IMG/VR virus record: IMGVR_UViG_3300031670_000002 | Span: 1 to 52,571 of that record | Reading direction: 5' to 3' (one strand) | DNA length: 52,571 nt | Source of the DNA: a virus | Shown here: positions 8,675-11,790 of the stretch, piece by piece | How positions within the stretch are numbered: position 1 is the first letter of the stretch | Layout of the letters: each line of letters begins with the position of its first letter | Notes under the pieces: model-generated | Seen by the model: the letters and a program-made list of their open reading frames with translations, nothing else | The model's database searches: none | Told to the model about the DNA's origin: nothing | Program-made: the position numbers and the translations under genes

Positions 8675-8850
8675 TGGCATCGACGGCGTTTCATCTCACA
8701 TTTACGTATACGATGATAGGCGATCACTCTCTCCTTGTGCATTTCTTTGGGTGCAAGGTCGATCATTGGATGTTGCTTGACCTTGCTGAAATCAGCAGCG
8801 AAACCGGCAAATCGTCTACGGAAATCATTGAGCAGTTGAAAGGTGAGTAG
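8674..8850 (+). CDS. Hypothetical small protein (58 aa)
   Basis: Begins MASTAFHLTFTYTMIGDHSL; its start shares a base with the previous stop (TAATG). Lower GC than the head genes flanking it. First of four genes lodged between the minor-head halves. No family recognised. Confidence 0.5.
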   Translation: MASTAFHLTFTYTMIGDHSLLVHFFGCKVDHWMLLDLAEISSETGKSSTEIIEQLKGE

Positions 8851-9229: not shown

Positions 9230-9667
9230 ATGACATGGTATCCCGTTCAAGTATCGCTTCCTGGCGCAGGTATGATCGCCGTACTAGGAAAGCCATACGA
9301 AACCTTAACCGATGGATTCATTCAGGATTGGATGTTTGAACTTGCCCGCACGCATGAGGTCAGTCCTGATTATCTACTGGTAAGCCAGGAAATCCGCAGC
9401 GAGCTTCATCGCATCGTTCAGGATGATCTTCATCTGTGGCAGTGGGCCGCGCACCATGCCAGAGATGCGGATACCGGAGAAGTTGCGGAACGCTATCCCA
9501 ATAAAATCACCGGCAAATCGCTCGGCATCGTCGTTTTCCCTGGACTACCGGCAAAAGTGCTTTTTGTGGCAAGTCTGCTTGAGATGCGCGATGAAAAGAC
9601 ACACATCGATGGCATTACGCGCATCGTCACTCGCACCTATGCGGGAATCTGGGAGAACAAGGAATGA
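9230..9667 (+). CDS. Hypothetical protein (145 aa)
   Basis: Begins MTWYPVQVSLPGAGMIAVLG behind AAAGGAG. Soluble, with a DLHLWQWAAHHARDADTGEV stretch; no family recognised. The last of four small genes between the minor-head halves; its stop overlaps the start at 9664 (ATGA). Confidence 0.55.
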   Translation: MTWYPVQVSLPGAGMIAVLGKPYETLTDGFIQDWMFELARTHEVSPDYLLVSQEIRSELHRIVQDDLHLWQWAAHHARDADTGEVAERYPNKITGKSLGIVVFPGLPAKVLFVASLLEMRDEKTHIDGITRIVTRTYAGIWENKE

Positions 9668-11790
9668 GGCCAGGGATGATCGGCGCTGGCCTGGGCGATC
9701 CGTCGCTGCGGGCGCTGGAGCAATTGAGCAACGCCTTGCAGCAGGGGCCGCTCGCTGATCTCTTCGCGGGCTTCGGCACGGAAGCGTCGCAAAAAGCGCG
9801 CGGCATCCTGATGATGGCGCTGCTCAACGGCGATAATCCGACGTGGGATAAGGACGGCCCATCGATTGCCAACGCGCTCCAACAGGCGTTGAACACGTCG
9901 CTGTACCGCGCGCAAACGATTGCACGTACCGAGATGCTCAACGCCTATCGCGACAGCAACCTTGCCAATTACCGCGCCAATGCTGATGTGGTGGATGGCT
10001 GGGTCTGGACGGCGGATTTGTCAGCGCGCACCTGTTTTCCTAGAGGCACAATGATAGAAACAAGCAAGGGGCAAATACCGATTGAACAAATGGAACTAGG
10101 AGATGAAGTTTTAACACATGAAGGTCGCTATAAGCGCGTGACGGTTGTCATGGCGCGGCCTTATTCGGGAGAAATGATAACCGTGAATTGTGGGGAACAT
10201 TCAGTCACCGCTACCGTCGATCACCCGTTCCTGATCGAGCGGCAAGGCGAGTTGTATTGGATAGAGGCTGGTCATATCCGTTTGGGCGATCACGCTATCT
10301 GCTATCGTGAGGGCGCTACGGATATAGCCGATCATACCTTCAGTCAGATTGCCATAGAAGGGCGTATCAGGCAAGCGGATAACGGTATAGCCCCGGCTTT
10401 GCAAGAACAGCGTCTTGCGGGCGTCTCTTCTCACCACATCAGGCCGGTTATGCCAGTACACGCCGTCAATCTCCAAAACAGTATTCAGGCTGGTCAAGAG
10501 GAAATCAACAGGATATCTCCAGCCATTGATAAGATGCTCTTGCGAGTAGGGGATACCCAACGTTTCCAGGCACATCCGGGCGTTCTTTTCCGGTTCGGTT
10601 TCGCCAGTGAAGCAACGGTAACAGCGTGGCGAGCAGAAAAAGCGATCCCCTTGTTCGGTAGGACGGATACGAAACGTTTTTCCGCACTGTCTGCACGTCT
10701 GAGTGATGGTTGGGCGTCGGCATTCCTCAGAGCAGTAGGTGTTATCAGAACGTTTTTGACGAAAAATCTTGTCACACCGCTTACAAGTAACATAGATCGT
10801 CCGCATATGCTTACAGGCATTAGAACAATAGATTTGGTTTCGCACGCTAGGAGAAGTAGTAAAAGTTTTTCCGCAAATAGGACAAATTTTCTCATGGCGT
10901 TCATGGGCTTTACGGCATTCAAGCGAGCAGTAGTCTCTCAGACGCCGCTGCTGTACGCAAAACGTTTTACCACAGCCTTTGCAAACCAAATCGAGACATG
11001 GTTTCGCCTCTTTGCCGCGCTGTGTATGGGGGCATTCCCGTTGATAGATAGTGTAGCAAGCATTGGAACAAAACCGCCGATTGCCTTTGCGTTGCCACGC
11101 TTTGGGAATGATAAACGGCTTTCCGCAGATTTCACAGGTCAATTCAACCCGTTCCGTCGCGTGTGCCGCTTTCCAGGCATCACGGCATTCTTTGCTACAA
11201 TACGCCCGTTCCTGTCTTGCGCGATTGCTGATGTCCATCCAGGCATCCTTACCGCACACTGCGCAGACGCTTTTGAGTTTCCTTCTATCGCCAGGATCGC
11301 GCTCAATATCAAGTCTTTTCATGCATCCATTATATCACAACTTGACCACCACATCCAGCGCGATACAACGGTGTATAACCTGGAGGTTGAGGGCGATCAC
11401 AGTTATGTGGCCGATGGCTTTGTCGTGCATAATTGTGCCGCGTGCATTTCGCAAAACGGCACACTGCATAGCCTGGACGAAACAATGGATGAGCATGTGT
11501 GTGGGCGGTGCAGTCCGATCCCGCATACCAAATCCTGGTCGGACATCCTGAACAACGCGGGCTATGACACGAGCGGCCTGGACTTGCCAGACAGCGCGCC
11601 CGCTCTACCGAGCGGCGCGGATTGGTTTGCCGCGCAATCGGCGGACGTGCAACAGCAGGTACTCGGCAAGGCGGGCTACGCGCTCTATCAGTCCGGCACG
11701 CCGCTCGCGGATTTTGTCGGCATCCGGCAGAACGCGCAATACGGCCCGTCGATTTATGTCAAGTCGATCAAAGAATTACAGGGAGGCTAA
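9664..11790 (+). CDS. Minor head protein (MuF-like), C-terminal half, interrupted by an intein
   Basis: 708-aa precursor. Residues 1-123 (MRPGMIGAGLGDPSLRALEQ..., TIARTEMLNAYRDSNLANYR, DGWVWTADLSART) and 591-708 (CAACISQNGTLHSLDETMDE, HVCGRCSPIP) join into the MuF-type core, where SART-CAAC is the usual continuous sequence. Residues 124-590 are an intein (see 10033-11433). Spliced, the host product is about 241 aa. It acts with the portal in head assembly or DNA ejection. The family N-terminal region is encoded separately at 8273. The C-terminal 80 residues (SADVQQQVLGKAGYALYQSG) resemble the usual MuF tail. Confidence 0.85.
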   Translation: MRPGMIGAGLGDPSLRALEQLSNALQQGPLADLFAGFGTEASQKARGILMMALLNGDNPTWDKDGPSIANALQQALNTSLYRAQTIARTEMLNAYRDSNLANYRANADVVDGWVWTADLSARTCFPRGTMIETSKGQIPIEQMELGDEVLTHEGRYKRVTVVMARPYSGEMITVNCGEHSVTATVDHPFLIERQGELYWIEAGHIRLGDHAICYREGATDIADHTFSQIAIEGRIRQADNGIAPALQEQRLAGVSSHHIRPVMPVHAVNLQNSIQAGQEEINRISPAIDKMLLRVGDTQRFQAHPGVLFRFGFASEATVTAWRAEKAIPLFGRTDTKRFSALSARLSDGWASAFLRAVGVIRTFLTKNLVTPLTSNIDRPHMLTGIRTIDLVSHARRSSKSFSANRTNFLMAFMGFTAFKRAVVSQTPLLYAKRFTTAFANQIETWFRLFAALCMGAFPLIDSVASIGTKPPIAFALPRFGNDKRLSADFTGQFNPFRRVCRFPGITAFFATIRPFLSCAIADVHPGILTAHCADAFEFPSIARIALNIKSFHASIISQLDHHIQRDTTVYNLEVEGDHSYVADGFVVHNCAACISQNGTLHSLDETMDEHVCGRCSPIPHTKSWSDILNNAGYDTSGLDLPDSAPALPSGADWFAAQSADVQQQVLGKAGYALYQSGTPLADFVGIRQNAQYGPSIYVKSIKELQGG
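10201..11322 (-). CDS. Zinc-finger homing endonuclease, antisense within the intein
   Basis: 373 aa. Six consecutive zinc modules of the form CxxC-n-CxxxC occur (CAVCGK...YCSKEC, CEICGK...FCSNAC, CKGCGK...YCSLEC, CPICGK...YCSNAC, CKRCDK...YCSEEC, CRQCGK...FCSPRC). A Vsr/DUF559-like nuclease domain follows (WRYPVDFLLT, VLEIDGVYWH, RRDARKTLFLQSRGYTVIRL), with acidic residues and a Lys typical of that fold. The zinc modules probably bind the target DNA and the C-terminal domain cuts it. The last 40 codons overlap intein block B. An extended -10 lies just upstream, giving an almost leaderless start. The codons are exactly in register with the intein frame. Confidence 0.88.
   Translation of the reverse strand: MKRLDIERDPGDRRKLKSVCAVCGKDAWMDISNRARQERAYCSKECRDAWKAAHATERVELTCEICGKPFIIPKAWQRKGNRRFCSNACYTIYQRECPHTQRGKEAKPCLDLVCKGCGKTFCVQQRRLRDYCSLECRKAHERHEKICPICGKTFTTSPSVRNQIYCSNACKHMRTIYVTCKRCDKIFRQKRSDNTYCSEECRRPTITQTCRQCGKTFRIRPTEQGDRFFCSPRCYRCFTGETEPEKNARMCLETLGIPYSQEHLINGWRYPVDFLLTSLNTVLEIDGVYWHNRPDVVRRDARKTLFLQSRGYTVIRLPDTPFYGNLTEGMIGYIRSALTIADSVIAQTDMTSLYPIQLALPLDQERVIDGSGD
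11329..11337 (-). promoter_or_regulatory. Extended -10 promoter for the antisense endonuclease
   Basis: On the minus strand, TGATATAAT lies 6 bp before the ATG at 11322. No good -35 is seen, which extended -10 promoters can tolerate. Transcription would begin almost at the start codon, so the message would be leaderless or nearly so and could be made independently of phage late transcription. Confidence 0.55.

Follow-up and report, generated by a model that had tools for sequence, protein, structure and literature searches.

A predicted homing endonuclease gene encoded antisense and in exact codon register within the intein of a phage MuF minor head protein

The window, the whole stretch of DNA analysed here, spans the 52,571 bases of an IMG/VR virus record. 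It encodes a phage head-tail module composed of terminase, portal, MuF, major head, and tail proteins. The gene for the MuF-type minor head protein (9664..11790, + strand) contains an intein and is one unbroken 708-aa ORF, 708 codons without a stop. The N-extein (9664..10032, +) ends in LSART and the C-extein (11434..11790, +) begins with CAACISQNG; both are placed by sequence and by intein-less alleles, those of L076-L083 for the N-extein. The insertion site is empty and continuous at RT|C in six IMG/VR relatives (L076, L077, L079-L081, and L083), and the intein-less MuF allele of L076 is 52% identical. A search of IMG/VR with the full 708-aa sense protein found no relatives.

The intein (10033..11433, +) is 467 aa long and is identified by Pfam and NCBIfam matches and by a Hint fold model. 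Its first residue is Cys (10033), it ends in VVHN (11433), and a Cys+1 follows at 11434. The N-terminal half of the Hint splicing domain (10033..10332, +) includes block A, which starts with Cys1 at 10033, and block B, with its TxxH motif, at about 10192-10239. The C-terminal blocks F and G, VYNLEVEGDHSYVADGFVVHN, carry the His-Asn pair and lie at 11368..11433 (+; TIGR01443 E=2.9e-9). Hint_2, Intein_splicing, intein_Nterm, and intein_Cterm match both ends of the 708-aa ORF. Pfam and NCBIfam find no endonuclease domain in the sense frame of the intein, so that the endonuclease of a conventional homing intein is missing from the intein's own frame. The sense spacer between the Hint halves (10333..11367, +) is translated, predicted to be disordered, and evolves as filler in which only the stop-free reading is conserved. 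In an AlphaFold2 model built on eight aligned inteins, pLDDT is mostly 77-94 for residues 1-90, 58 for residues 91-100, ~30 over most of residues 100-442, and ~72-89 for the C-terminal 25 residues. The two ends of the intein are modelled as a Hint fold and the sense spacer between them as disordered, and the best PDB matches of the model are bacterial intein-like (BIL), hedgehog, gp41-1, and other inteins.

The opposite strand of the intein encodes a predicted homing endonuclease of 373 aa (10201..11322, - strand). Both frames start at coordinates equal to 1 mod 3 and are thus in exact codon register. Six zinc-ribbon (CxxC...CxxxC) modules span residues 20-234 (10621..11265, -), as judged from the sequence, the nuclease alignment, and PHROG zinc arrays of HNH endonucleases. 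The catalytic domain, residues ~240-343 (10294..10605, -), is of the EDxHD type, resembles DUF559/Vsr in Pfam, and is placed by its 3r3p match, Foldseek, and pLDDT. The best solved relative of the nuclease is I-Bth0305I (3r3p; phmmer E=1e-9). The C-terminal tail (10201..10332, -), nuclease residues ~331-373, lies opposite the end of the Hint N-half, including block B. An AlphaFold2 model built on ten aligned nucleases has a mean pLDDT of 78, with 80-95 in the catalytic domain, and its best PDB match is again I-Bth0305I (Foldseek E=4.5e-6, TMt 0.75), with Vsr next; the last 30 residues (344-373), which face block B, are modelled as disordered. The residues of the zinc and catalytic motifs are largely invariant across the ten aligned nucleases, and the pattern DF...E-D--YWH...RD, invariant in 10/10 of the aligned sequences, is a candidate acidic/His catalytic motif. 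A preliminary description of this DNA had proposed splicing blocks at both ends with no endonuclease between them in the sense frame, a minus-strand gene of 373 codons with six zinc modules and a Vsr/DUF559-like domain, exact register between the two frames, and an overlap of the last ~40 nuclease codons with block B; the domain matches, the ORF, and the coordinates bear out each of these points.

Relatives were gathered by nuclease homology alone. Single-sequence searches first recovered L002, whose nuclease is 51-52% identical, L003, and the Vibrio phages 1.266.O, 1.082.O, and 1.265.O. A profile search with ten nucleases returned 334 relatives, and the best 80 of the 334 formed 66 clusters at 90% nucleotide identity. 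The nuclease gene lies antisense and in exact register within an uninterrupted host ORF in 40 of these 66 clusters. The remaining clusters carry it on the same strand at +1 (6/66) or have no open host frame (20/66), and the two remaining antisense phases and the +2 frame are unoccupied (0/66) among these best 80 relatives. The antisense hosts scanned (n=39) match Intein_splicing (36/39), Hint_2 (34/39), and Phage_Mu_F (19/39), and mostly match head-morphogenesis or portal PHROGs; nearly all nested hosts are recognisable inteins of MuF or portal-MuF proteins. Individual hosts have additional matches to domains of ADP-ribosyltransferase exoenzyme, inorganic pyrophosphatase, or 2'-5' RNA ligase, and the sense frame of one gives a DUF559 match.

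The cultured Vibrio phages are independent instances of the nested arrangement. Their nuclease is EDxHD-like (DUF559) with a different DNA-binding region, and their inteins occupy another MuF site (HPNA|CRS or HWNA|CRS). The public records MG592631, MG592457, and MG592630 (L014, L015, and L068) annotate the sense ORF only, as 'hint domain protein', 'coil containing protein', or 'hedgehog/hint domain protein', and leave the antisense nuclease unannotated. A search of IMG/VR with the Vibrio antisense nuclease found no relatives, and a scan of genome contigs returned mostly zinc-array loci. Plasmid relatives were also seen. On the nuclease tree, many branches of which are weakly supported, the antisense-nested state requires 14 changes, compared with 24.7 in shuffles, and at least 4 changes are forced by well-supported branches, which implies repeated origin or loss of the nesting. 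Two further features were noted. In L095 (3501-4595), an intein in another gene has an in-register antisense ORF of 318 aa with a zinc module, an HTH-like stretch, and a possible nuclease core, which matches no Pfam nuclease family. In L019, a second intein C-terminal block lies near 8781 (G003:C1:49213-49278), within a different large ORF of that phage.

The minus-strand nuclease frame is the conserved frame. Between L167 and L175, the nuclease frame has a pN of 0.052 and a pS of 0.295 (pN/pS 0.17), compared with a pN of 0.107 and a pS of 0.106 (pN/pS 1.0) in the sense frame. Nuclease identity exceeds sense identity in 174/174 pairs, with means of 0.49 and 0.26, all of these pairs having been admitted at 45% nuclease identity or above. 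Differences between the window and L002 fall at nuclease codon positions 1, 2, and 3 in the numbers 108, 101, and 207.

Start signals were found in front of many of the antisense genes. In the window, the extended -10 promoter motif TGATATAAT (11329..11337, -) places TATAAT exactly 6 nt before the nuclease ATG, a spacing that implies a leaderless mRNA. The same TATAAT-N6-ATG occurs in L017, L126, and L128, and variants occur in L129 (TACAAT-N6-GTG) and L125 (TAGAAT-N6-ATG). The antisense start of the window was missed by a simple sigma-70 scan, since its promoter is of the extended -10 type with a weak -35. A -10 hexamer lies 5-7 nt before the start in 9/41 antisense members, compared with 0.7% at random ATGs, and a Shine-Dalgarno sequence is present in 18/41, compared with 2.8%; both enrichments are inflated, since each locus was scored at its best start and the Shine-Dalgarno threshold was looser than that of the control. 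These signals bear on whether the nuclease gene was inserted antisense and persists only as a silent passenger or a decaying remnant, with its mobility over. The 14/41 antisense members with no recognisable start signal fit such a reading, but start signals are enriched in the set as a whole, the nuclease frame is under purifying selection in every pair examined, and the motif residues are largely invariant in 10/10 nucleases. A silent passenger is improbable, if less so than the other alternatives.

A second alternative is that the sense spacer itself is functional, for example as a folded regulatory or DNA-binding part, and that the antisense gene is secondary. Sense identity was compared with a null in which the nuclease protein is fixed and its codons are resampled. 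The window and L002 have 52% nuclease identity, and their sense identity of 27.0% equals the null (27.2 +- 2.0%). The Vibrio pair is the exception, with a sense identity somewhat above the null (38.7% vs 29.7 +- 2.4%), which would fit a functional spacer. In the other unsaturated comparisons, however, sense identity equals the null, and the sense-frame pN/pS of 1.0, the spacer pLDDT of ~30, and the loss of most of the spacer from split versions of the intein all argue against this reading, which is very unlikely.

The exact antisense register has a strict consequence: a stop in the sense frame can arise only from a TTA, CTA, or TCA codon in the nuclease. The window nuclease has none, where the codon usage of the phage itself predicts ~4.2-4.5 (P(0)=0.008-0.012). 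Codon avoidance is suggestive from the window alone, and it is decisive with the relatives included. The 40 antisense clusters have 0 of these codons in 10,712 matched codons, compared with 144 in 5,207 (2.8 per 100) in the 20 clusters without an open host frame and 43 in 1,619 in the 6 same-strand clusters. In 12 nested cases judged by each locus's own codon usage, 75.7 are expected and 0 are observed. The free-standing relatives use these codons as often as expected or more often, with observed/expected counts of 13/13.4 in L004, 20/15.7 in L008, 10/7.2 in L021, 18/6.8 in L005, and 10/3.7 in L006. At the rates of the non-nested clusters, ~268 codons would stay open by chance with a probability of about 6e-4 per locus. 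Membership of the nested class requires an open sense frame, which makes the zero count partly definitional; the P values accordingly measure the improbability of an accidental open frame and do not amount to an independent test. What gives the codon evidence its force is the number of loci in the nested class, together with the presence of intein blocks at either end. The avoidance of the three codons in the nuclease, predicted in the preliminary description, is seen in the window and upheld across the relatives. Two findings that could have told against that description, a minus-strand frame without conservation and a known endonuclease domain in the plus-strand centre, did not appear; the former is excluded by the comparisons of the two frames, and in the latter region Pfam and NCBIfam find no such domain and AlphaFold2 predicts disorder.

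The antisense ORF could also have arisen by chance as a mirror image of the intein's coding sequence. Real genes often have long in-register ORFs on their antisense strand, an arrangement mechanically favoured wherever certain codons are avoided in the sense frame, and the GC content of the window is about 0.5. This reading is refuted by pN/pS and by the free-standing homologues of the nuclease outside inteins; the antisense product also has a solved homologue and a matching fold, and its codon positions 1 and 2 are conserved, with changes concentrated at position 3. Removal of the centre as RNA, with precedent in the antisense homing genes of rDNA group I introns (PMC9548176), has next to no likelihood, since an intron would not need the sense frame that is open in 40/40 nested clusters, protein-splicing blocks stand at both ends, and an Rfam search of the window found no match and thus no known intron family.

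With the architecture, register, conservation of the nuclease frame, codon avoidance, recurrence, and exact intein-less alleles all observed, the locus is very probably a homing intein that has its endonuclease as a separate protein, read from the opposite strand with the codons of the two frames exactly in register. This supports the nested, opposite-strand reading of the preliminary description, of which transcription, splicing, DNA cleavage, and homing are the inferred part. The sense transcript would yield a MuF precursor, in which the Hint halves would fold around a disordered spacer of ~340 residues, the product of reading the antisense gene in the sense direction, and would splice the intein out. 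The antisense strand would use its own start signals to produce the zinc-module EDxHD nuclease. By analogy with I-Bth0305I, cleavage by the nuclease would fall near the RT|C site of the intein-less MuF allele, and the whole intein, nuclease gene included, would be copied in during repair. Selection preserves the protein sequence of the nuclease and purges TTA, CTA, and TCA, such that the capsid protein stays readable.

Homing inteins with an in-frame endonuclease, such as PI-SceI, likewise place an endonuclease gene between Hint halves within a conserved host protein. In the window, by contrast, the endonuclease is a separate opposite-strand protein and the sense centre is disordered filler. 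With I-Bth0305I and the EDxHD (Vsr-like) family, the nuclease shares the catalytic fold, the sequence (phmmer E=1e-9, Foldseek E=4.5e-6, which place it among homologues of the 3r3p/Vsr catalytic fold), and a multi-module DNA-binding part, but it has six zinc modules and sits antisense in an intein. Fractured genes, reportedly described by Dassa et al. 2009 (as cited in PMC10448857), are said to combine split inteins with EDxHD endonucleases. They too have an intein and an EDxHD endonuclease at one phage locus, whereas the window and the 40 clusters have a continuous sense gene that overlaps the endonuclease codon for codon; a host gene broken into two ORFs is found in L003/L019 and L164 and not in the window. 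The ShiLan element is an out-of-frame HNH endonuclease hidden in a phage methylase, and it is likewise a homing endonuclease concealed out of frame within an in-frame insertion free of stops; it lies on the same strand and is without intein splicing domains, unlike the antisense, in-register gene inside the intein of the window (PMC11855218). Antisense homing endonuclease genes are known in nuclear rDNA group I introns, where the homing gene also lies on the strand opposite its host element, but there the host is an rRNA ribozyme, which has no protein frame to maintain (PMC9548176). A literature search, to which Dassa et al. 2009 and subscription papers were external, found no antisense endonuclease in an intein.

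The related loci can be arranged in a plausible series, the direction of which would run from (i) the empty MuF with its exact intein-less alleles, through (ii) a free-standing nuclease and (iii) the nested antisense nuclease of the window and the 40 clusters, to (iv) the split intein. Stage (ii) is represented, for example, by L132, L160, L161, L181, and L194, where the nuclease converges on the 3' end of a MuF-like gene that has no intein, these genes being called MuF-like by a C-terminal motif only. Free-standing relatives of the nuclease that converge on a neighbouring gene, in many cases overlapping its 3' end, were noted in L132, L137, L160, L161, L169, L178, L181, L190, and L194, and several of these neighbours look like intein-less MuF. 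Stage (iv) is found in L003/L019 and, separately, in L164 (2489-5827, with an antisense EDxHD nuclease). In these split inteins, the sense N and C halves overlap both ends of the antisense nuclease with the register kept, most of the sense spacer is dropped, and the middle of the locus contains 9, 9, and 15 TTA/CTA/TCA codons in L003, L019, and L164, respectively. The C half of L003/L019 carries AAAAGG-N8-ATG, which lies within the nuclease gene.

A second class of hidden endonuclease was found in a survey in which intein loci were located by their N-terminal domain. Here, inteins of other genes conceal an EDxHD-like or HNH endonuclease in the +1 frame of the same strand. The survey gave L096, L100, L105, L106, L108, L109, L110, L111, L117, and L120, and the nuclease profile search gave L155, L177, L191, L193, L197, and L199; many of these inteins are in non-MuF genes, in contexts that resemble terminase and helicase motifs. 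Codon pairs that would make a host stop number 0 in ten +1 inteins, with 114.9 expected. Forced host stops were computed by dynamic programming over the synonymous codings of each nuclease. The antisense register and the same-strand +1 frame have zero forced host stops for every nuclease tested, the former because Leu and Ser have other codons and the latter because every NNT codon has an NNC synonym; the other three alternative frames usually carry some. With duplicates removed, the hidden endonucleases comprise 12 in antisense register, 10 at +1, and one at +2. The last is an HNH endonuclease ORF in L107 on the same strand (HNH_3 E=6.6e-13), the sole hidden case outside the two permissive frames. 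On balance, we favour the view that hidden-endonuclease inteins form a broad class under one coding rule, in which only two of the five alternative frames are permissive for any protein, synonymous codons being enough to keep host stops out, and hold nearly all cases, the antisense form arose repeatedly, and splitting of the intein relaxes the codon ban, as one natural route to split inteins.

These loci contain long stretches of DNA that can be read codon for codon on both strands, and they do so at scale. One strand encodes a selected enzyme, and the other a translated, apparently neutral linker, so that the two parts of a homing intein are separated into two proteins. The three-codon ban provides a clean natural test of how overlapping genes accommodate one another. 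Annotation pipelines miss such nucleases, as in the Vibrio phage records. The arrangement also offers a route from a nested endonuclease to a split intein, which bears on the origin of split inteins.
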